Positions 43,211-56,007 of a stretch of DNA of 64,000 nucleotides are shown here, in pieces. This DNA comes from Pseudanabaena sp. Chao 1811 (lineage in GTDB: Bacteria; Cyanobacteriota; Cyanobacteriia; Pseudanabaenales; Pseudanabaenaceae). Under the pieces are notes generated by a model. The model was not told where the DNA came from and did no database searches. It saw only the letters and a program-made list of their open reading frames with translations. Numbering within the stretch: the stretch's first letter is position 1; every line of letters starts with the position of its first letter. The stretch is from positions 2,272,001 through 2,336,000 of the forward strand of contig NZ_CP101416.1 of the NCBI RefSeq assembly GCF_027942295.1, written 5' to 3'. A program made the translations under genes and the position numbers.

Positions 43211-43254
43211 AGCACTAAATAGTAATTTTGACCTTTGTCTGTAACCTAAAGATT

Positions 43255-44451
43255 ATGCAAAAAACAACAGAAGATACGGAATTTGCATTGATCTGTGATG
43301 ATGTCAGTAAGGTCTTTCTGGTTAGTAACACTAAAGCTTATTGGCAAATGCTATGTGGACATAGTTCTCTAAAGAAAATTCTGGCTTTGGAGAATGTTTC
43401 TTTAAATATACCTAAAGGGGAAGTAGTTGGGATTATAGGAAATAATGGTTCAGGAAAAAGTACTCTTCTCAGAATTATGGGAGGTAATTATACTGCTACA
43501 AATGGAAGTGTATATCTAGAAGGAAGTTTGACAGGTATTTTTGAACTTGGTGGAATTGGTAATCCAAATCTCACAGGAAGAGGTTATGCAGCAAGACTTT
43601 TGTCTCTTCAGGGAGCAAAGAGGAAAGACTTAAAAGTTTTACTTGATGAGATTTATGAATTTTCAGAACTCTTCGATTACTTTGATGCACCAATCTATAC
43701 CTATTCATCGGGAATGAGAGCCCGTCTATATTTTGCAACTGCCACAACTCTAGATTGGGATATTTATTTAATTGATGAGGCTCTTTCGGTGGGCGACGAA
43801 CACTTCCAAGCGAAATGTTGGCAGAGGATTCGGAAACGACTACTAAAAGGAGCTTCAGGGGTTCTGGTGACCCACGACTTTACAGCTATTCTCAAGCTTT
43901 GTTCTTCAGCTTGTATTCTTGAGCGCGGTAGTCTAATAAAATCAGCACCTACCCTTGAGCTTGTTAGATTCTATATTCAACAATCAGCTACAAAAGCTGA
44001 ATCTTTACAAGGAGCTACTTTTGACAAAGATATGGCAAAGGAGTGGATTGTGAACTTTGGCGAAGATGTTGAGATCTGTTTCACAATTCATTTAACTCTC
44101 CCTGTCTCGGTTAGCTTAGCTTACACAATCGAAATGTTTGTTCCAGGGATAGGTTGGGAAGTGATGATGATGCAAGTTAACTTGCCACTCACTTCTAAAG
44201 TCGGAACTCATAAAGTGTGTCTGAAGATCCCAAAGTTGCCGCTTTCTCCGGGGCGATATCTACTTGGGTTAGCACTTTGCAAACCTGCAGAGGCTGGAAA
44301 AGTTTTTGCTATTGGCTATGATGGACGTAACTGGATCAGTGGTTCTCCGCTCTACTTGATAGTTCAAAATAATGAAAATAAAAATGTTAATGCCTGTGAT
44401 AATGGTATTAATCTTCCTTTGAAATGGAATAGACTGGAGAACTTGTCTTAA
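43255..44451 (+). CDS. wzt: ABC transporter ATPase of the O-antigen/teichoic-acid type, Wzt-like 1
   Basis: A 398-residue ATPase. Walker A is GIIGNNGSGKST, the signature YSSGMRARLYFA, Walker B DIYLIDEALSVGDE, and the H-loop VLVTHDF. All are intact. After about residue 240 follows an extra domain (EDVEICFTIHLTLPVSVSLAYTIEMFVPG ... SPGRYLLGLALCK) like the carbohydrate-recognising beta-sandwich of Wzt proteins. Unusually a second ATPase gene follows 2 bp later while there is only one permease. The frame opens earlier at a TTG; the ATG at 43255 is chosen for the MQKTTEDTEF start. Confidence 0.87.
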   Translation: MQKTTEDTEFALICDDVSKVFLVSNTKAYWQMLCGHSSLKKILALENVSLNIPKGEVVGIIGNNGSGKSTLLRIMGGNYTATNGSVYLEGSLTGIFELGGIGNPNLTGRGYAARLLSLQGAKRKDLKVLLDEIYEFSELFDYFDAPIYTYSSGMRARLYFATATTLDWDIYLIDEALSVGDEHFQAKCWQRIRKRLLKGASGVLVTHDFTAILKLCSSACILERGSLIKSAPTLELVRFYIQQSATKAESLQGATFDKDMAKEWIVNFGEDVEICFTIHLTLPVSVSLAYTIEMFVPGIGWEVMMMQVNLPLTSKVGTHKVCLKIPKLPLSPGRYLLGLALCKPAEAGKVFAIGYDGRNWISGSPLYLIVQNNENKNVNACDNGINLPLKWNRLENLS

Positions 44452-44453
44452 AA

Positions 44454-45677
44454 ATGTTTATTCGTGTTAAAAATCTCTCAAAAATTTACCATATTCAAGT
44501 ATCAGAGGTTCAACCTTCATCTCAAGGCAAGCGAGCTAACACAATGTCTAAGGGAAGAAATGACAAGGTTGTTATCGATGATATCTCTTTTGAGATTTTT
44601 AATGGTGAGCGGGTTGGCATCATTGGATCTAATGGTGCAGGTAAATCAACATTACTACAAATCATCGCTGATATTGCTAAGCCAACTTCTGGAATTGTAG
44701 AAAAAAAAGGTAAAGTTACGGCAGTAATGACACTTGGTGTTGGTCTACGAGAAGAATTGACTGGTCGGGATAATATTTATATTGATGGTGAAGTTCAAGG
44801 TAAAAGTCGTCTAGAAATTGATGAAGTGATTGATAAAATCATTGCCTTTGCAGATCTTAGCGATTTTATTGACTATCCTGTTCGTACATACTCTACAGGA
44901 ATGAAGAGCCGCTTAGCTTTTTCGATGTTAGTGTGTATTGAGCCAGAAATCCTAATCATAGACGAAGCTCTTTCAGCAGGAGATGCAAACTTTTCAATTA
45001 AAGCAAGCAAGAAAATTCGTGAGATCTGTGATCTTGGGAGGATTGTTATTTTAGTTTCGCATTCTATGCCAACTATTGTTGAGATGTGTGATCGTTGCAT
45101 CTGGATGGAGCATGGAAAGATTGTTATGGATGGCGATCCTCAAACAGTTACCGATGCTTATCTGGACGCTGTGCATCATGACGATGAAATTGCGTTGCTT
45201 GAACAAAATATTCGCCTAATCAAGGATACTTCATTCAGGAAAGGTTGCCAAATCAACCAAATTTCTATTAGTTATAGCGATAATCAGCAATCACAAACGA
45301 TCTTGGTTGCTGGTAGAGATATAACTATTACTTTACACATCAGGGTTGATACTTTACTTGAGTGTCCTGATGTTCGTCTAAAAATCACACGGCTTGATGG
45401 CAAAATATTTGTAAATACTTTACTCAGCGATCAAAGTACTATTACAAGTAACGATTTTCATGGCATTCTTGCATTTGTAATAAATATGACTCCACTCGTT
45501 TTAGGTCAGGGTAAGTATGTTGTTGCCTGTGAGCTACTTGATAGGGGTGAAATAGTGGCTGCAAAGTCTACTATCCTGCAAGTACTGCCGCCACCTAATG
45601 CTCCTACTGGTGGAAGACCTGCACTATTTTATCCATGTTCTGTCGAGACCTATGAAATCTGTTCGGAAACAAATTAG
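44454..45677 (+). CDS. wzt: ABC transporter ATPase, Wzt-like 2
   Basis: A 407-residue ATPase with Walker A GIIGSNGAGKST, ELTGRDNI, signature YSTGMKSRLAFS, Walker B EILIIDEALSAGDANF and H-loop VILVSHS. The C-terminal domain is a beta-rich Wzt-C-like region (TITLHIRVDTLLECPDVRLKITRLDG ... LVLGQGKYVVACELLDRG). Its end (ETYEICSETN) overlaps the permease gene by 26 bp, which suggests it is the direct permease partner. It differs throughout from the first ATPase, so the pair did not arise by recent duplication. They may form a heterodimer, or one may serve another permease. Confidence 0.87.
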   Translation: MFIRVKNLSKIYHIQVSEVQPSSQGKRANTMSKGRNDKVVIDDISFEIFNGERVGIIGSNGAGKSTLLQIIADIAKPTSGIVEKKGKVTAVMTLGVGLREELTGRDNIYIDGEVQGKSRLEIDEVIDKIIAFADLSDFIDYPVRTYSTGMKSRLAFSMLVCIEPEILIIDEALSAGDANFSIKASKKIREICDLGRIVILVSHSMPTIVEMCDRCIWMEHGKIVMDGDPQTVTDAYLDAVHHDDEIALLEQNIRLIKDTSFRKGCQINQISISYSDNQQSQTILVAGRDITITLHIRVDTLLECPDVRLKITRLDGKIFVNTLLSDQSTITSNDFHGILAFVINMTPLVLGQGKYVVACELLDRGEIVAAKSTILQVLPPPNAPTGGRPALFYPCSVETYEICSETN

Positions 45678-46473
45678 AAAAATTTCTATCGCTGGCTTTA
45701 CATCACAAGATGCAAGATTTATTTTTAACTTTCTTAAGATGAACATTCATGATCGCTACCTTGGATCAACACTTGGTAGCTTATGGGTGATCTTAAATCC
45801 TATGATTATGTTTGCAATCTATACTTTTGTATTTGGTTATGTTTTCAAAGCAAAGATACCAGGTGCAGAAACAAATTTGGGATACGCAATATGGCTTATT
45901 GCGGGATATGGCCCTTGGCTGGCAATTTCCGAAGGTTTATTGAATTCTACAACGTCAGTTGTCGCCGGAGCAGGGCTAATCAAAAACCTTGCCTTTAAAA
46001 CCGAGTTGTTACCAGTTGCTGCGGCTCTTACAGGAATGGTTCCCCTATTTGTGAGCCTTTGTTTTTTGACAATTCTACTAGGAATTGACGGAAATCCCAT
46101 GAGTTGGCATGTAATTTTTGTGATTCCTGCAATAATACTGCAATTTACATTTATCATTGCGATAGGTTTTTTCTTTTCAGCAATTAATGTTTTTGTAAGA
46201 GATTTTGGTATCATTTTGCCAAACTTATTAATTATGCTGGTGTTTGTGACTCCTATTTTTTATCCTGAAACTAGCACACCACCATTGCTACAGTCTATAT
46301 CTGCCTTTAATCCATTTTATATCATTTGTCAAGCTTATCGACAAGCTCTAATATTTCATCAAATACCTAATATACTTTCTTTAATTTATGTTGGTTTGAT
46401 TAGCTGGATATTAGGCAATTTTGGATTACAATTTTTTCGGCGACTTAAAGGGAATTTTGAGTCAATGCTATAA
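45652..46473 (+). CDS. wzm: O-antigen/polysaccharide ABC permease, Wzm-like
   Basis: A 273-residue ABC-2 permease with six predicted membrane helices. The first begins at SLWVILNPMIMFAIYTFVFGYVF after the cytoplasmic amphipathic segment IHDRYLGSTLG. Others include IIAIGFFFSAINVFVRDFG and LLIMLVFVTPIFYPE. Two copies would form the channel that exports undecaprenyl-linked glycan to the periplasmic face. The ATG at 45652 lies within the end of the ATPase gene; the longer frame from 45598 lacks support. It implies the ABC-dependent (not Wzy) assembly route; no Wzx/Wzy-like proteins are in the window. Confidence 0.88.
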   Translation: MKSVRKQIRKISIAGFTSQDARFIFNFLKMNIHDRYLGSTLGSLWVILNPMIMFAIYTFVFGYVFKAKIPGAETNLGYAIWLIAGYGPWLAISEGLLNSTTSVVAGAGLIKNLAFKTELLPVAAALTGMVPLFVSLCFLTILLGIDGNPMSWHVIFVIPAIILQFTFIIAIGFFFSAINVFVRDFGIILPNLLIMLVFVTPIFYPETSTPPLLQSISAFNPFYIICQAYRQALIFHQIPNILSLIYVGLISWILGNFGLQFFRRLKGNFESML

Positions 46474-47400: not shown

Positions 47401-48672
47401 ATGAGTAAAAGGGGGAGGAGGCTAAACATATTAATACTATGTGACATGAACTCACTGTATACAAGTACAGTCAGAGAATATGTTGAAAGTTTCAGCCTAT
47501 TTTCAATCCATCATATTTTCTATGTTCATGCTACTTCTAGTAACCCACTTTGTATTGACATATCAATATTTGATGTTGTAGTTACTCATTACTCAATCAG
47601 GCTAAGTTTTGATTGGCATTTATCCTCTTTTTATCGTCAAGCGCTCAAGGGATATAAAGGATTAAAGATATCATTTGTACAAGATGAATATGATGAAACA
47701 GAAACAATAAGGAGATCGATAGAAGAACTGGGTATCAATATATTATTTACTTGTGTACCTGAAGAATTCATTGAAGACATTTATCCATCATCAAGATTTA
47801 GAGGAGTAAAGTTTATCCAAACTTTAACTGGATGGGTACCGAGCAATCTAGAAAACAGAAATGAATTTAAGCCAATATCAGAAAGACAGAAAGTAATTAG
47901 TTATAGGGGTCGTCCACTAGCATACTGGTATGGAGATTTAGGACAAGAAAAAGTAAACATTGGCAAAGTAGTAAAGGCAGAATGTGAAAAGAGAGGAATA
48001 TCTGTTGATATAGAGTGGGATGAGGATAAAAGAATCTATGGAGATCAATGGTATACCTTTCTTTCTAACGCCAGAGCTACATTAGGTACTGAAAGTGGCT
48101 CAAATGTTTTTGATGACTATGGAGAAATTCGTAGAAATATAAAGGGGGAAATAGATAAGAATCCCGCAGTGACCTATGAGGAAATACATCAAAAGTATTT
48201 GGTAGAACATGAGGGGAAAGTAAAAATGAATCAGATTTCTCCTAAAATGTTTGAGGCGATCGCATTGAAGACAGCTCTTGTTCTTTTTGAGGGTTCTTAT
48301 TCTGGGATACTAAAATCTGAGGTACATTACATTTCTCTCAAAAAAGATTTTAGTAATTTAGATCAAGTATTGGCTAAATTAGATAATATCTCTTATTTAG
48401 AACATTTAACAGAGACAGCTTTCAGGGATATAATCCTATCTGGTAAATATAATTATGAGCAATTTATTCTTCAATTTGATGATGTTATTGCTCAATATGA
48501 AATTCAAAGTAAGAATGTATCAGGATTCACTATTCAAAAGGCTTTTGAAGAACCTCTAATGATTGATCTACTTAGAATGAATGAATTACAAGACTATATC
48601 TTGAAAGTAGAAAATAGCAAGTTTTGGAAATTAAGAGGGATATGGATGAAGTTTAAAAATCTTGTGTTTTAG
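47401..48672 (+). CDS. CgeB-like putative glycosyltransferase, tandem copy 1
   Basis: A 423-residue protein related to the Glyco_trans_1_2/CgeB-type GT-B group. Visible elements are LNILILCDMNSLYTSTVREYVESFS at the N-terminus, then FVQDEYDETETIRRSIEELGINILFT and the conserved VISYRGRPLAYWYGDLGQEKVNIG. YTFLSNARATLGTESGSNVFDDYGEI and ISPKMFEAIALKTALVLFEGSYSGIL (C-terminal nucleotide-sugar side) follow. Codons for residues 8-369 lie in a block repeated almost exactly in the next gene. The last 54 residues are different (SGFTIQKAFEEPLMIDLL...WMKFKNLVF). The exact donor is unknown. Confidence 0.72.
   Translation: MSKRGRRLNILILCDMNSLYTSTVREYVESFSLFSIHHIFYVHATSSNPLCIDISIFDVVVTHYSIRLSFDWHLSSFYRQALKGYKGLKISFVQDEYDETETIRRSIEELGINILFTCVPEEFIEDIYPSSRFRGVKFIQTLTGWVPSNLENRNEFKPISERQKVISYRGRPLAYWYGDLGQEKVNIGKVVKAECEKRGISVDIEWDEDKRIYGDQWYTFLSNARATLGTESGSNVFDDYGEIRRNIKGEIDKNPAVTYEEIHQKYLVEHEGKVKMNQISPKMFEAIALKTALVLFEGSYSGILKSEVHYISLKKDFSNLDQVLAKLDNISYLEHLTETAFRDIILSGKYNYEQFILQFDDVIAQYEIQSKNVSGFTIQKAFEEPLMIDLLRMNELQDYILKVENSKFWKLRGIWMKFKNLVF
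47421..48507 (+). repeat. Tandem duplication, copy 1 (1,087 bp)
   Basis: Bases 47421-48507 are repeated at 48756-49842 (offset 1,335 bp). Comparing by eye I found one difference, A at 47469 against G at 48804, which is synonymous. Both borders are sharp; sequences outside them are unrelated. Confidence 0.9.
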
Positions 48673-48735
48673 TATATATAAATACAACAATACAAATCAA
48701 TATTAATTTGTATGTAAATCATTAAAACTATTAGC

Positions 48736-49986
48736 GTGATTAAAACAAAAGAAATGCTAAACATATTAATACTATGTGACATGAACTCACTGTATACAAG
48801 TACGGTCAGAGAATATGTTGAAAGTTTCAGCCTATTTTCAATCCATCATATTTTCTATGTTCATGCTACTTCTAGTAACCCACTTTGTATTGACATATCA
48901 ATATTTGATGTTGTAGTTACTCATTACTCAATCAGGCTAAGTTTTGATTGGCATTTATCCTCTTTTTATCGTCAAGCGCTCAAGGGATATAAAGGATTAA
49001 AGATATCATTTGTACAAGATGAATATGATGAAACAGAAACAATAAGGAGATCGATAGAAGAACTGGGTATCAATATATTATTTACTTGTGTACCTGAAGA
49101 ATTCATTGAAGACATTTATCCATCATCAAGATTTAGAGGAGTAAAGTTTATCCAAACTTTAACTGGATGGGTACCGAGCAATCTAGAAAACAGAAATGAA
49201 TTTAAGCCAATATCAGAAAGACAGAAAGTAATTAGTTATAGGGGTCGTCCACTAGCATACTGGTATGGAGATTTAGGACAAGAAAAAGTAAACATTGGCA
49301 AAGTAGTAAAGGCAGAATGTGAAAAGAGAGGAATATCTGTTGATATAGAGTGGGATGAGGATAAAAGAATCTATGGAGATCAATGGTATACCTTTCTTTC
49401 TAACGCCAGAGCTACATTAGGTACTGAAAGTGGCTCAAATGTTTTTGATGACTATGGAGAAATTCGTAGAAATATAAAGGGGGAAATAGATAAGAATCCC
49501 GCAGTGACCTATGAGGAAATACATCAAAAGTATTTGGTAGAACATGAGGGGAAAGTAAAAATGAATCAGATTTCTCCTAAAATGTTTGAGGCGATCGCAT
49601 TGAAGACAGCTCTTGTTCTTTTTGAGGGTTCTTATTCTGGGATACTAAAATCTGAGGTACATTACATTTCTCTCAAAAAAGATTTTAGTAATTTAGATCA
49701 AGTATTGGCTAAATTAGATAATATCTCTTATTTAGAACATTTAACAGAGACAGCTTTCAGGGATATAATCCTATCTGGTAAATATAATTATGAGCAATTT
49801 ATTCTTCAATTTGATGATGTTATTGCTCAATATGAAATTCAACCCAAACTAATTTCTTCGTTAACTATCCAAGCTGCTTTCGCGAAAGCCTTAGAGACGG
49901 TATATCAAAACAATCAAAAGTTTAAAATAAGAAAATTACTAGGAAAAATAAAGCGAGCAATTTTTGGGATTATTTCAATTAAATAG
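48736..49986 (+). CDS. CgeB-like putative glycosyltransferase, tandem copy 2
   Basis: A 416-residue protein identical to copy 1 over about 362 residues from LNILILCDMNSL to AQYEIQ. It has a different seven-residue-scale start (MIKTKEM) and a different tail of about 48 residues (PKLISSLTIQAAFAKALETVYQNNQKFKIRKLLGKIKRAIF). The start is taken as the GTG at 48736 (no better ATG in front; an ATG at 48754, just before the repeat, would also serve). With such identity the two proteins probably have the same specificity, unless the tails direct them to different partners. Confidence 0.72.
   Translation: MIKTKEMLNILILCDMNSLYTSTVREYVESFSLFSIHHIFYVHATSSNPLCIDISIFDVVVTHYSIRLSFDWHLSSFYRQALKGYKGLKISFVQDEYDETETIRRSIEELGINILFTCVPEEFIEDIYPSSRFRGVKFIQTLTGWVPSNLENRNEFKPISERQKVISYRGRPLAYWYGDLGQEKVNIGKVVKAECEKRGISVDIEWDEDKRIYGDQWYTFLSNARATLGTESGSNVFDDYGEIRRNIKGEIDKNPAVTYEEIHQKYLVEHEGKVKMNQISPKMFEAIALKTALVLFEGSYSGILKSEVHYISLKKDFSNLDQVLAKLDNISYLEHLTETAFRDIILSGKYNYEQFILQFDDVIAQYEIQPKLISSLTIQAAFAKALETVYQNNQKFKIRKLLGKIKRAIFGIISIK
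48756..49842 (+). repeat. Tandem duplication, copy 2 (1,087 bp)
   Basis: Second copy of 47421-48507; see there. The HIP1 octamer at 48256 is present at the equivalent place here (49591). Confidence 0.9.
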
Positions 49987-50009: not shown

Positions 50010-51980
50010 ATGGTGAAAGACAATCAAACATCTAACAACTATCTGTTATCTATATTTGACTGTGTGGTAATATTGTGTCTAGAAGAAAATAGTCAAGAAT
50101 TTAATTTAGAAGAACATCAATTTACAAAAAAATTGTTTGACTATCTTCCTATTGTATATATTGTGCCAGACCTTAATGAAAAAAATATAAACCATGAAAT
50201 ATTAGATAACAAAACAATTATTCTTCATGTTTATAAACTATATGGTGAGGTGCAGTCATCTTTAATCAGAAGATTTATGGTGGAATCGTATTTTATAAAG
50301 CCTATTGTTTGGATACATAATATTTTATTTATAGACTTTATTATTAATGGTTTCTCATCATTAAAAGTATTTCATCCAACAAAAGAATGTCGAAAATTTG
50401 ATTTTTTAAGTCTTGATGATAACTACTTTAACAATATTTTAAATGCTACTTTATATACATCAGATGTATTGATTAGTAAGTCAGATGAAATTAGAAATAG
50501 TTATCTAGCAAATACTTTTCACAAACTGCCAAGTTTTAGCTTGGAAAGTGTAAATATTTTAGGCATATATAAAATACTTTGCCAAATATCAAAAGATAAT
50601 CTGAGTAAGAATAAGAAAGATATAAATGCTTTAAAGCCTCACTTTAATGTCCTTATATTATATGATGCTCAGTCAATACACGTTAATACCGTTAGAGAGC
50701 ATTTAGAAAGTTTTAAGAAATTTTCTAAATGCTATATAAACTATGCTCCAGCTACAGGATTTGTAAAGCCTGAAATCTCTCTACAAGACTACGATATTAT
50801 AGTTGTTCACTACTGTATTCGCGTCAATATAAATAACTATTTATCGCCATATTATTCTCAGGCTTTGAAAGATTTTAGTGGCTATAAAGTTTTATTTATT
50901 CAGGATGAGTATGACACTACGGAAATTGCTCGTGTTTGGATAAGAGATATTGGTATTCACGCTGTATTTACTTGTATACCGAGTCAATATATTAATCAAA
51001 TTTATCCTTATTCTCGATTCCCCATGGTTGAATTTATTCCAACCTTGACTGGTTTTGTTCCTCAATGCCTTGAAAGTGGAGATGATTTGCAGACTTTTAA
51101 AGTAACTCCTACTTCTGAACGTCATTTGTCAATTGTCTATCGAGGTCGAAAGCTTCCCTATTGGTATGGAGATTTAGGTCAAGAGAAGTTGGAGATCGGT
51201 CTGAAGATGAAACAAATTTGCTTAGAAAAATCGATTGATAATGATATTGAATGTGATGATAGTAAACGCATATATGGAGATAGTTGGTATGATTTTTTGT
51301 CTAGTGGTAAAGCAACTTTGGGTACAGAAAGTGGATCCAATATTTTTGATGAATTTGGCAATATCAGAGCAAATATAGAATTAGCCCTTAAAAAGAATCC
51401 TCAAATGAGTTATGTTGAGGCGCGCAATCTTTTTTTTAAAGAAGACCCCAAAAAGGTGAAGATGAATCAAATATCACCAAAGATGTTTGAAGCGATCGCA
51501 CTTAAAACAGCCCTGATTTTATTTGAAGGAGAATATTCGGGAATCCTCAAGCCAGATATTCACTATATTTCCCTCAAGAAAGACTTTAGTAATATTGATT
51601 CTGTGTTATCTAAACTTCAAGATCCTTATTATTTAGAAAGATTAGTTGAGACCGCATATACTGATATTGTTGCATCAGGTAAATATAGCTATCAACAGTT
51701 TATAGATGAATTTGATCGTTTTTTATTAGAACATTTACCAATAAAAAAAGAACGCCAAAAAATTCTCACAGAGAGTTCTCTGTTATTACTGACAAATAGC
51801 AAGTTGTATTCATTTAAACTTCTAATCATATCTATATTTAATAACCCAATTTTTTATATAAGAAGACTTTTTCTATTGCCAAAGCTCATTAAGTTGAAGT
51901 TGCAGTCATTTTGGTTTAAACTAAAGCAAATAATTAAAAAGAATTTGCAAAAAATTAGGCAAAAGCAGTTCCTTCAGTAA
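50010..51980 (+). CDS. Two-domain CgeB-like glycosyltransferase (third paralogue)
   Basis: A 656-residue protein. Residues about 215-580 are a diverged relative of the two preceding proteins (FNVLILYDAQSIHVNTVREHLESF; FIQDEYDTTEIARVWIRDIGIHAVFTC; YRGRKLPYWYGDLGQEKLEIG; ATLGTESGSNIFDEFG; ISPKMFEAIALKTALILFEGEYSGIL). The first 210 residues (VVILCLEENSQEFNLEEHQFTKKLFDYLPIVYIVPDL...) are an additional domain not seen in the other two, possibly a second GT-B lobe or a receptor-like part. The basic tail (LIKLKLQSFWFKLKQIIKKNLQKIRQKQ) could touch the membrane. A HIP1 site sits at the same codons as in the other two. Confidence 0.7.
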   Translation: MVKDNQTSNNYLLSIFDCVVILCLEENSQEFNLEEHQFTKKLFDYLPIVYIVPDLNEKNINHEILDNKTIILHVYKLYGEVQSSLIRRFMVESYFIKPIVWIHNILFIDFIINGFSSLKVFHPTKECRKFDFLSLDDNYFNNILNATLYTSDVLISKSDEIRNSYLANTFHKLPSFSLESVNILGIYKILCQISKDNLSKNKKDINALKPHFNVLILYDAQSIHVNTVREHLESFKKFSKCYINYAPATGFVKPEISLQDYDIIVVHYCIRVNINNYLSPYYSQALKDFSGYKVLFIQDEYDTTEIARVWIRDIGIHAVFTCIPSQYINQIYPYSRFPMVEFIPTLTGFVPQCLESGDDLQTFKVTPTSERHLSIVYRGRKLPYWYGDLGQEKLEIGLKMKQICLEKSIDNDIECDDSKRIYGDSWYDFLSSGKATLGTESGSNIFDEFGNIRANIELALKKNPQMSYVEARNLFFKEDPKKVKMNQISPKMFEAIALKTALILFEGEYSGILKPDIHYISLKKDFSNIDSVLSKLQDPYYLERLVETAYTDIVASGKYSYQQFIDEFDRFLLEHLPIKKERQKILTESSLLLLTNSKLYSFKLLIISIFNNPIFYIRRLFLLPKLIKLKLQSFWFKLKQIIKKNLQKIRQKQFLQ

Positions 51981-51994
51981 AGTTTGGGGTATTT

Positions 51995-53917
51995 ATGTGT
52001 GGTATTGGTGGCACTGTTAGTCTTTCCCTACAATCGCTCCCTTTTATAAATCGTCATCTAAAAGCTATTAACCAAATACAACAGCATCGTGGACCTGATG
52101 GTTGTGGTGTTTGGGTTCATCCTCAGCAGCAAGTTGGTTTCGCACACAGACGTTTAAGCATTATCGATCTAGATTCGGGTAGTCAACCCATGCGCGATCA
52201 CTTTAATAACTGGGTGACTTATAACGGGGAGATTTACAACTACTTAGAGCTACGTTCTGAGCTAGGATCTGATAACTTTGCAACCCACTCAGACACTGAA
52301 GTGATTTTACATGCTTATCGTAAATGGGGCAAAGACTGCGTTAAGCATTTTCGAGGGATGTTTGCTTTTGCCCTTTGGGATGAAGCAAATCAAGAACTAT
52401 TTTGTGCTCGCGATCGCTTTGGAATTAAACCTTTTTATTACACGCAGGTTCGCGATGTTCTTTACTTTGCATCGGAAGTAAAAGCTCTTTTGCCTTTTGT
52501 CTCAGAAATATCTACAAATCCAAATGGATTTCAGGACTACCTTACATTTCAATTCTGTTTAGCAGGCAAAACGCTATTTAAAGATATTTATGAACTCTTG
52601 CCTGGTCATACTCTAACAGTTAGAAATGGGCGATTACAGGTTGAACGATATTGGGAAGTTTATTATGAATTGGACTTTGATCATACCGCTAAATATTTTG
52701 AGGAGAAAATCCAATCATTACTTCAAGAATCTGTTGAGCTTCACCTACGTAGCGATGTTCCCTTAGGAGCTTATCTAAGTGGTGGTCTAGACTCAAGTAT
52801 TGTGGCATCTCTTGCTTCTCAAGTGTCAAATAGTAGCTTTGAAGGGTTTACCGGGAAATTTGCGATCGGGGCAGATTATGATGAAAGTTATTATGCTCGC
52901 GAAGTAGCCAAATTTGGTAACTTTAATCTGCATGAGATCGATATTACTGCTCAAGATTTTCTGGACAACATTCGCAAAGTGATCTACCACCTTGATTATC
53001 CTGTGGCGGGACCTGGGTCTTTCCCACAGTATATGGTTTCTCAACTTGCTAGCCAGCACCGCAAAGTTGTACTTGGTGGACAGGGTGGAGACGAAATTTT
53101 TGGCGGCTATGCACGCTATTTAATTGCTTATTTTGAGCAATGTATCAAGGGGGCGATCGATGGGACGATGAATTCTGGTAATTTCATTGTTACCTATGAA
53201 TCAATTATTCCTAATTTACAGACCCTAAAAAGCTATAAGCCTCTACTACAGGAATTTTGGAGAGAAGGTTTATTTGAAGATCTTGATCGCCGCTATTATC
53301 GATTAATTAACCGTGCATCTACTTTACAAGATGAAATTCGTTGGGATGCAATCAATTCTGATCACTACGACTCATTTGAAACATTTCTAGATATTTTTAG
53401 AGTAAAAAATGTTCAACAAGAGTCTTACCTCGATAGCATGACTCACTTTGACTTCAAGACCTTGTTGCCAGCTTTACTACATGTTGAAGATCGGGTCAGT
53501 ATGGCTCATGGATTAGAATCTCGCGTCCCTTTTCTCGATCATCCTTTGATTGAACTAGCTGCAACAATTCCCTCAAATATTAAATTCAAAGATGGTACGA
53601 TGAAACATGTTTTGCGAAATGCGATGCAAAAATACTTGCCAAAAGCAGTATCAGAGCGTAAAGATAAAATGGGTTTCCCTGTCCCACTAAACTCTTGGAT
53701 TCAAAATGAAGCCAAAGAATTTATCTATGATGTATTTTCTTCGCAATCAGCACTCAATCGAGAGCTAGTTAACAGCCAAGTTATTTTAGATAAGTTGAAG
53801 CAAGAACCAAAGTTTGGTCGCAAGATTTGGGGATTGCTTTGTCTAGAACTCTGGCAACAAGAGTTTCATGACCGCGCAGGTTACTACAGGGAAGTTTTAA
53901 ATTTAGTAGAGGAATAG
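51995..53917 (+). CDS. asnB: AsnB-type amidotransferase 3
   Basis: A 640-residue class II glutamine amidotransferase/asparagine synthetase. Cys2 (MCGIGGTV), QHRGPDGCGVWV, FAHRRLSIIDLDSG and YNGEIYNYLEL form the glutaminase domain. YLSGGLDSSIVASLA is the PP-loop, and VEDRVSMAHGLESRVPFLDHPLIELA and RKDKMGFPVPLNSWI are in the synthetase domain. It is intact and distinct from the other two copies in the locus. It stands 14 bp after the CgeB-like gene and 5 bp before an epimerase gene. Base composition returns to that of the left part from here on. Confidence 0.87.
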   Translation: MCGIGGTVSLSLQSLPFINRHLKAINQIQQHRGPDGCGVWVHPQQQVGFAHRRLSIIDLDSGSQPMRDHFNNWVTYNGEIYNYLELRSELGSDNFATHSDTEVILHAYRKWGKDCVKHFRGMFAFALWDEANQELFCARDRFGIKPFYYTQVRDVLYFASEVKALLPFVSEISTNPNGFQDYLTFQFCLAGKTLFKDIYELLPGHTLTVRNGRLQVERYWEVYYELDFDHTAKYFEEKIQSLLQESVELHLRSDVPLGAYLSGGLDSSIVASLASQVSNSSFEGFTGKFAIGADYDESYYAREVAKFGNFNLHEIDITAQDFLDNIRKVIYHLDYPVAGPGSFPQYMVSQLASQHRKVVLGGQGGDEIFGGYARYLIAYFEQCIKGAIDGTMNSGNFIVTYESIIPNLQTLKSYKPLLQEFWREGLFEDLDRRYYRLINRASTLQDEIRWDAINSDHYDSFETFLDIFRVKNVQQESYLDSMTHFDFKTLLPALLHVEDRVSMAHGLESRVPFLDHPLIELAATIPSNIKFKDGTMKHVLRNAMQKYLPKAVSERKDKMGFPVPLNSWIQNEAKEFIYDVFSSQSALNRELVNSQVILDKLKQEPKFGRKIWGLLCLELWQQEFHDRAGYYREVLNLVEE

Positions 53918-53922
53918 TAATT

Positions 53923-54867
53923 ATGAAAGTTTTAATCACTGGTGGAGCTGGTTTTATTGGTTCTCATCTTGCTGATCGTTTATTGAGTCGTGGTGATCAA
54001 GTATTCGTTATTGATAACTATTCTACAAGCCGACGTGATAATCTTACACCTCATGATAATTTGACTGTTGTGGAGGGAACCATTGCTGATGCTGGTTTAG
54101 TAGATAAATGTTTTGATGAATTTCAACCAGAGCTTGTTATTCACGCTGCTGCTTCTTACAAAGATCCAGAAAACTGGATAGAGGATGCCAATACCAATGT
54201 GGTAGGTACTATTAACATCACTAAAGCGTCAAAAAAGGTAGGGATTAAAAGGCTAATCTATTTTCAAACAGCTCTATGCTATGGCTTAAAACCATTAGAG
54301 CAGCCCATTACTTTAACTCACATCATTCAATCAGAAGGTAGCAGCTATGCGATTAGTAAGACGGGTGGTGAGCAGTACATCAAATTGAGTGGCTTAGACT
54401 ATATCTCTTTCCGCCTTGCTAATGCTTATGGACCAAGAAATTTAAGTGGTCCTTTGCCAACTTTCTTCTATCGTTTGACTAATGGCAAGCCTTGCTTTGT
54501 GATGGATACCCGTCGTGACTTTATTTTCGTAAGTGATCTTGTAGATGCCGTTATGGGCGCAGTTGACGGTAAGGGAGAATGTGGTCCGTATCATATTTCT
54601 TCAGGTGGAGATTACTCTATCAAAGAATTGTTTGATATGACAGTCAAGGCACTAGATATTAAACTAGATCAAGAGGTGGAGGTTCGTCCACGCAATGCTG
54701 ATGATGCTTATACAATTTTACTTGATCCATCTAAAACTAATCAAGACTTCAATTGGAAAGTTACAACTTCTTTGGAGCATGGAGTGAAAGCTGCAATTGA
54801 TTGGTATAAACAGTATGGAATCAGTCAAACTTTTACTCACTTGAAGCTCGTAGATGAGAAGAAGTAG
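53923..54867 (+). CDS. NAD-dependent sugar epimerase/dehydratase (extended SDR) 3
   Basis: A 314-residue extended SDR: VLITGGAGFIGSHLADRL, VIDNYSTSRRDNL, VIHAAASYKDPENWIEDANTNVVGTINI, YFQTALCYG and the catalytic SYAISKTGGEQY (Tyr-x3-Lys). FRLANAYGPRNLSGPLPTFFYRL, DFIFVSDLVDAV and KTNQDFNWK close it. It looks like a UDP-glucose 4-epimerase or UDP-glucuronate decarboxylase-like enzyme. Usual length. It ends with an intrinsic terminator 13 bp after its stop, so it is likely the last gene of this transcription unit. Confidence 0.85.
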   Translation: MKVLITGGAGFIGSHLADRLLSRGDQVFVIDNYSTSRRDNLTPHDNLTVVEGTIADAGLVDKCFDEFQPELVIHAAASYKDPENWIEDANTNVVGTINITKASKKVGIKRLIYFQTALCYGLKPLEQPITLTHIIQSEGSSYAISKTGGEQYIKLSGLDYISFRLANAYGPRNLSGPLPTFFYRLTNGKPCFVMDTRRDFIFVSDLVDAVMGAVDGKGECGPYHISSGGDYSIKELFDMTVKALDIKLDQEVEVRPRNADDAYTILLDPSKTNQDFNWKVTTSLEHGVKAAIDWYKQYGISQTFTHLKLVDEKK

Positions 54868-54879
54868 ATTTTTCCAGTA

Positions 54880-54920
54880 ATCACCAAAAGCAAATTATTG
54901 CTTTTGGTGATGTTTTTGTT
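54880..54920 (+). terminator. Intrinsic terminator after the epimerase gene
   Basis: ATCACCAAAAGCAA (54880-54893) and TTGCTTTTGGTGAT (54898-54911) form a perfect 14-bp stem with an ATTA loop, followed by GTTTTTGTT. This is a good Rho-independent terminator on the plus strand. Confidence 0.8.
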
Positions 54921-54957
54921 AAATTAATCATGTCTAAATCTTAAGTGAGGTAATACT

Positions 54958-56007
54958 TTGGAAGGTTTCAAATCGCAAAAAGTTTTGGTGGTGGGTGGTG
55001 CTGGATTTGTCGGTAGCAACCTTGTAAAAATGATATTACAATCCTTTCCTAAAGAGGTAATAGTTGTTGACAATTTGTTGTCTGCAGAAAAAGAAAACCT
55101 CCCTGAAAATCCAGCTTTAACATTTGTTGAAGGTTCAATTACTAATGATTCTATATTGGACAGCTTACCAACAGATTTAGACTATGTTTTCCATCTTGCT
55201 ACATATCATGGAAACCAAAGTTCCATTCATGATCCTCTTGCCGACCATGAGAATAATACCCTAACAACTCTTAAGCTCTATGAGAAGATCAAAAACTTCT
55301 CCAACCTGAAAAAAGTTGTTTATTCATCCGCAGGCTGCACAGTAGCTGAGAAGACTTTTGATACAGCTAAAGCAACTACAGAAGATGATCCCGTCTCTCT
55401 TTATCTAGATAGCCCTTATCAAATCTCGAAAATTATTGGAGAATTCTATTCTAATTATTATTTGAGACAACATGGATTGCCTGTGGTTAAAGCACGTTTT
55501 CAAAATGTCTACGGACCTGGAGAAGTATTAGGTGCAGGGCAATGGCGTGGAACACCTGCAACCATTTGGCGAAATGTCACGCCGACATTTGTCTACCGCT
55601 CTTTGAAAAATATGCCATTAACAGTTGAGAATGGTGGTATTGCCACAAGAGATTTTATCTATGTTGATGATATCGCTCGTGGCTTAATGCTTTGTGCAAC
55701 ACGTGGTATTGCTGGAGGGGTATATAATTTAGCTAGTGGCGTTGAAACAACGATTTTGGAACTAGCTACTTTGATTAACCAAATTACAGGTACTTCAACT
55801 CCTATTGATTATCGTCCAAAACGCAATTGGGATAACTCTGGCAAGCGATTTGGTAGTACAGATAAGGCTAAACAAGAGTTAGGCTTTGAAACGCAAGTTG
55901 ATTTGTCAAAAGGTTTAGAACAAACTGTGCTGTGGACAAAACAACATATTGATTTTATTGATGCATGTATTTCTAAGCACAAGCCTTATATGTCATCACT
56001 CAACTGA
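54958..56007 (+). CDS. NAD-dependent sugar epimerase/dehydratase (extended SDR) 4
   Basis: A 349-residue extended SDR: VLVVGGAGFVGSNLVKMI, VVDNLLSAEKENLPENPALTFVEGSI, FHLATYHGNQSSIHDPLADHENNTLTTLKLYEKI, KKVVYSSAGCTVAEKT, and Tyr-x3-Lys in SPYQISKIIGEFYSNYY. ARFQNVYGPGEVLGAGQWRGTP and DFIYVDDIARGL are similar to UDP-GlcNAc 4-epimerase-like enzymes. The initiation codon is a TTG at 54958, supported by GAGG 7 nt upstream and by the distance to the Rossmann loop; no in-frame ATG precedes it. It follows a terminator, so a new promoter is likely between 54911 and 54945. Confidence 0.83.
   Translation: MEGFKSQKVLVVGGAGFVGSNLVKMILQSFPKEVIVVDNLLSAEKENLPENPALTFVEGSITNDSILDSLPTDLDYVFHLATYHGNQSSIHDPLADHENNTLTTLKLYEKIKNFSNLKKVVYSSAGCTVAEKTFDTAKATTEDDPVSLYLDSPYQISKIIGEFYSNYYLRQHGLPVVKARFQNVYGPGEVLGAGQWRGTPATIWRNVTPTFVYRSLKNMPLTVENGGIATRDFIYVDDIARGLMLCATRGIAGGVYNLASGVETTILELATLINQITGTSTPIDYRPKRNWDNSGKRFGSTDKAKQELGFETQVDLSKGLEQTVLWTKQHIDFIDACISKHKPYMSSLN

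Follow-up and report, generated by a model that had tools for sequence, protein, structure and literature searches.

How did two adjacent genes of Pseudanabaena sp. Chao 1811 come to share a core that is almost identical base for base, set between ends that differ? The genes lie in a 64-kb window (the whole stretch of DNA analysed, 64,000 nucleotides), and the features of the locus are listed in Table 1. Direct comparison bore out the coordinates, the length of 1,087 bp and the single synonymous difference that the preliminary description had given for the shared block. We found that the block recurs at an offset of 1,335 bp, and that the sole difference between its copies is an A at 47469 versus a G at 48804, which falls on the third position within codon 23 and leaves Thr in both (ACA/ACG), with the two copies being identical in protein. 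In both genes the block opens on the third position of codon 7 and closes with codon 369, and gene 2 could alternatively start from an in-frame ATG at 48754, beside the block border. The genome consists of a single contig (4,729,581 bases), in which a search with gene 1 finds itself, copy 2 and a diverged third gene (66% over 479 bases). Within the 64-kb window, the next direct repeat is 45 bp long at 87% identity (self-BLASTN, E <= 1e-5), and a repeat finder reported a weaker likeness to gene 3, of 71-74% over 57-136 bp. The only full match of the spacer in the genome is itself, with four others spanning 24-32 bases. No direct or inverted repeats of at least 10 bases were found in two of the three border stretches, and the third contained one imperfect 19-nt direct repeat in the mobile-element search. 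A very recent tandem duplication, as the preliminary description was headlined, fits these observations badly and was rejected in its simple form, because it predicts abutting copies or a repeated spacer, whereas here the copies do not abut, the genome has a single copy of the 248-bp spacer, and copy 2 is followed by T2.

Table 1. Features of the locus, in positions of the 64-kb window.
Feature	Position	Strand	Description
ABC exporter genes	43228..46473	+	Two Wzt-like ATPases and one Wzm-like permease; upstream of genes 1-3
Gene 1	47401..48672	+	423 aa; GT-B glycosyltransferase-like core plus tail T1; open reading frame
Block copy 1	47421..48507	+	Putatively homogenised core; 1/1,087 bases differ from copy 2
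Spacer	48508..48755	+	248 bp; T1, intergenic DNA and head of gene 2; single in the genome
Tail T1	48508..48669	+	54 aa; homologous to T2 over first ~18 aa; SKFWKLR module at the end
Gene 2	48736..49986	+	416 aa from GTG; open reading frame
Block copy 2	48756..49842	+	Putatively homogenised core; matches copy 1
Tail T2	49843..49983	+	47 aa; diverged homologue of T1; amino acid local score 40
Gene 3	50010..51980	+	656 aa; older paralogue; core at 55.8% identity, preceded by an additional N-terminal part
Asparagine-synthase-like gene and two NAD-dependent epimerase/dehydratase genes	51995..56007	+	Pfam/NCBIfam matches; downstream

Next, we investigated the sequences flanking the block. The starts and tails had been described as unrelated, which the comparison contradicts for the tails: in the 60 bp directly 3' of the block, at the offset of 1,335, 29/60 bases are identical and 31/60 different, a level that none of 159 slid registers reached (best 27) and that was attained in 131 of ~200,000 random local-window draws (dinucleotide-shuffle p-value 0.0001). 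None of 2,000 shuffles reached the alignment score of the T1 and T2 proteins, which agree in register at 8 of their first 18 residues. The likeness fades outward, with a p-value of 0.0035 over 120 bp and a non-significant 0.11 over 165 bp. The tails are thus diverged homologues in register, their homology being short. Upstream of the block, 45/90 bases are identical over 90 bp (dinucleotide-shuffle p-value 0.00025), but this sequence is AT-rich and overlaps the preceding gene at its far side; the 60 bp closest to the block gave a p-value of 0.015 and the closest 20 bp one of 0.05, so that a relationship between the heads is at most possible.

Since diverged homologous tails flank a core that is 99.9% identical, the best reading, which we consider probable, is that gene conversion has recently homogenised the cores of an older tandem pair. 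Genes 1 and 2 would be an older pair of tandem GT-B glycosyltransferase-like genes within a surface-polysaccharide cluster, and the core of one would recently have been copied over that of the other by non-reciprocal homologous recombination, either through gene conversion or through two successive unequal crossovers with the same outcome. The tract would have run approximately to the ends of the alignable domain, halting where the genes had diverged too far, and the diverged tails, perhaps the heads too, would have been left in place. Conversion between older paralogues had been offered in the preliminary description as an alternative and is the better supported one, its main clue being the in-register tail homology missed there. 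It is further backed by the single-copy spacer, by gene 3 as a diverged paralogue, by the diverged multiple copies in other genomes and by the GT-B fold, which are described below. We infer recombination as the agent, a recent date for the event, and the same transfer for both proteins, with the tails setting location or partners.

The C-terminus of T1 (48592-48669) carries a module, SKFWKLRxxWxxxK, that also occurs on other proteins of the genus. Using a four-row profile, it was detected in 14/26 genus genomes at E <= 0.01, our own counted, with the motif being readable in 12 of these 14, the exceptions being L086 (G005) and L087 (G015). On these open reading frames it lies mostly 11-25 residues from the C-terminus, while it is found near residue 27 of 308-codon frames (L076-L078), of which the G011 frame reads like a methyltransferase by eye, and internally in long frames (L082, L091-L093). 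The end motif was absent from L070 and L071, two short spacer matches elsewhere in the genome, and the string SKFWKLR was not found in the literature searched. T2, searched by sequence in 38 genomes, matched itself alone. Together, the module on other genus proteins and the isolation of T2 make the ends in this family look exchangeable, in contrast to its conserved cores.

Such exchangeable ends, along with the 99.9% identity of the cores, would also suit a fresh duplication, in which a single gene with head 1 and tail 2 had its core duplicated, and the copies came to enclose new DNA bearing the end of one gene and the start of another. We regard this as rather unlikely: a stop and a start would both have had to be acquired without disturbing either frame, the spacer has no other source in the genome, and a homology of T1 to T2 in exact register would be surprising in captured DNA.

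To return to conversion, the extent of its proposed tract can be compared with that of the protein domain. Full-length gene 1 aligned with whole-domain relatives from starts at residues 4-12 to ends at 353-375, with gene 3 over 8-366, and with L038 from residue 21. The limits for full-length gene 2 were much like those of gene 1, with one start at 16 (L022) and with alignments extending to 390 (L044) and 391 (L043); in tblastn, gene 1 reached residue 421 in L010 and 374 in L011. The limits of the family profile, 9-369, provide no independent evidence on the extent of the domain, the profile having been built from the block itself. By these alignments, the block nearly coincides with one protein domain, its own end lying at codon 369. 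A tract end near the limit of family homology fits recombination that stopped at the pairing limit.

Gene 3, which the preliminary description had taken as a sign of an older local family, sustains that suggestion through its core identity of 55.8% to gene 2 in protein, with 60% of aligned bases identical. At conserved residues, third bases agree in 47% of cases, and no shared run exceeds 17 bases. Because runs of at most 17 bases at 60% identity are a poor recombination substrate, a point that weighs against conversion, cores 1 and 2 would have had to resemble each other more, before the event, than cores 2 and 3 do. As regards the remainder of gene 3, its N-terminal part (50010-50621) resembles the beginning of the glycosyltransferase domain at the N-terminus of the L011 protein (E 2e-12; 24% over 151 aa), and gene 3 may therefore carry a shortened second transferase domain.

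Multiple copies per genome are also found elsewhere, some of them adjacent or a few kb apart (G933, G389, G775), so that clusters of several copies are long established in the core family. We compared 24 cores, setting the starts of L023, L039 and L044 upstream of the profile match by hand, and excluding a broken second Eubacterium paralogue (L024/L025), repeats of the same gene (L021, L050, L051) and partial or very distant matches (L040, L041, L045-L048, L052-L056). The nine core pairs lying within one genome, from five other genomes, were 19.9-38.7% identical, and among the within-genome pairs compared, homogenised cores were seen here alone. Against the conversion reading stand these nine pairs without homogenisation, the short, fading homology of the tails and the ambiguous likeness of the heads. 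Three loci differ in arrangement. In Eubacterium, the paralogue adjoining L011 (9184-10441) is broken into two frames near an 18-G run inside the core, which may reflect either a flaw in the assembly or a switch that works by slippage. G933 (L033, L050) has a 1,162-codon open frame with two successive cores of 32.9% identity, which a third core gene adjoins. In G943 (L044, L051), two equal-scoring matches lie near opposite ends of one contig, perhaps representing overlapping contig ends and not two genes.

Upon examining its distribution, we observed the core in 2/388 genomes of the class (single-sequence search) and 4/386 genomes of the phylum (profile search), our own counted in each. Profile searches also detected it in 12/385 genomes of the class of a Magnetospirillum genome, that genome counted and some being weak partial matches only, and in 2/391 genomes of the class to which the Eubacterium genome belongs, one of the two being the Eubacterium genome itself and the other looking like a chance match. 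A match in G1128 (E 4.9e-5) was set aside, since it reads like an unrelated protein by eye. A protein search for the core in the plasmid collection gave no match, and among viral contigs 70 stretches fit a pattern, of which 0 were confirmed. Across the 26 genus genomes, the block DNA was present in our own alone, G002 showing a match to just 37 tail bases, and the 25 others yielded no near-identical core. No sister carrying unconverted cores was found among these genomes, which counts against conversion, and we infer the state before it.

We next examined what the core may encode. A model of gene 2, built from a five-sequence alignment and of moderate quality (pLDDT 69.2, pTM 0.62), gave 54 matches in the PDB at E <= 0.001, and the structure of gene 1 was taken from this model, the cores being identical in protein. 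The best VIA-align Z score was 17.7, for 6eji (288 residues, 3.9 A), and HepE of Anabaena (4xsr) scored 15.7. The model has the same fold as GT-B glycosyltransferases of known structure (6eji, PimA, BshA, HepE 4xsr), at identities of 7-15% among the 50 structure matches listed. The core is accordingly modelled with a GT-B fold, its two predicted Rossmann-like domains matching solved GT-B enzymes. In sequence searches, genes 1-3 matched 0 Pfam or NCBIfam families at E <= 0.001, no Glycos_transf_1 or Glyco_trans_1_2 being found in them even at E <= 10, and a PDB sequence search returning chance-level matches alone (E 0.32 and 0.42); in the L011 relative, Glyco_trans_1_2 covers the core at 23.2 bits, below the Pfam gathering cut-off of 25. 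E-x7-E is the motif of CAZy GT4. Glu285 is kept in 24/24 aligned cores, and a Glu eight residues before it, as this spacing requires, occurs in 1/24 cores and is absent in genes 1-3. We would accordingly name the core GT-B-like and keep it outside CAZy GT4. On the model, genes 1 and 2 are probable sugar-transferring enzymes.

In the exporter genes, ABC_tran and ABC2_membrane score above their Pfam cut-offs, while Wzt_C and the NCBIfam Wzt/Wzm models score below theirs. As listed, the ATPase open reading frame 44454-45677 and the permease frame 45598-46473 overlap by 80 bases (45598-45677), and the permease start is uncertain. A methyltransferase gene also lies upstream of genes 1-3, and further sugar-modifying genes are found in the surroundings. 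When the survey was extended to 14 stretches from 13 other genomes (one of them, L068, just 7.4 kb long), relatives of the downstream asparagine-synthase-like and epimerase/dehydratase genes were seen near the core in some of them; an asparagine-synthase relative was present near the core in 8/13 (G388, G389, G177, G417, G400, G641, G775, G699), a count taken with no random-region control, and absent from the stretch in G933, G943, G770, G843 and G744. Judged by their domain matches, the neighbours fit a role in building surface polysaccharide.

Abundance of HIP1 (GCGATCGC) is a cyanobacterial signature, and the window contains 50 such sites versus 0.44 expected. The first 28.1 kb holds 35 of them, none occurs over the ~20 kb between 28071 and 48255, and each of the three cores has one (48256, 49591, 51492). 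Because of this HIP1-free stretch, the polysaccharide cluster looks foreign to the genome, an appearance that would suit an outside origin of the core, in which homologous recombination with DNA of a related strain gave one gene a core matching that of the other. We consider this improbable, however, with a local donor 1.3 kb away being simpler and with no near-identical core in the 25 other genus genomes searched or, by protein search, in the plasmid collection. A misassembly that duplicated the core we likewise consider improbable, as the genome is one contig, both copies lie within complete open frames, and short-read assemblers tend to merge such repeats, not to fabricate an additional copy that has a distinct head and tail and a private base.

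Gene conversion, the preferred reading, has known parallels. For the bacterial RF1/RF2 release factor genes, PMC4530459 describes conversion limited to almost one domain (domain 3), with the rest of the paralogues remaining distinct, as here. Those are ancient paralogues, however, and conversion was deduced through phylogeny and sliding windows over several species, whereas our pair is adjacent, differs by one base and comes from one genome (PMC4530459). Similarly, conversion is named in PMC6053082 as the main force behind the concerted evolution of 26 prokaryotic genes, including psbA/psbD, in which same-genome paralogues are near-identical and this is attributed mainly to gene conversion, as in our reading. 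The psbA/psbD cases are recurrent and long-lasting, in contrast to one event in one genome and in a rare polysaccharide gene, and the word glycosyltransferase does not occur in the main text of that article (PMC6053082). No report of this gene pair or core family was found in the literature searched, in which subscription journals are thinly covered. Read as conversion, the pair is a further case of an already known process, domain-limited conversion between paralogues.

A broader suggestion, which we hold doubtful, is that the core is a cassette recombining independently of its ends, with conversion keeping both cores identical and exchangeable basic C-terminal modules of the SKFWKLR type targeting one activity, within a single polysaccharide pathway, to two sites or partners. 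Overall, the locus would provide a clean natural example of conversion confined to about one domain, in which divergence of the flanks lets the downstream limit of the tract be read to a single base. It also draws attention to an end module common to different proteins and to a GT-B-like family that Pfam and NCBIfam models do not cover, often near asparagine-synthase-like and epimerase genes. As the cores are identical and the ends are not, the part played by the ends can be tested directly.
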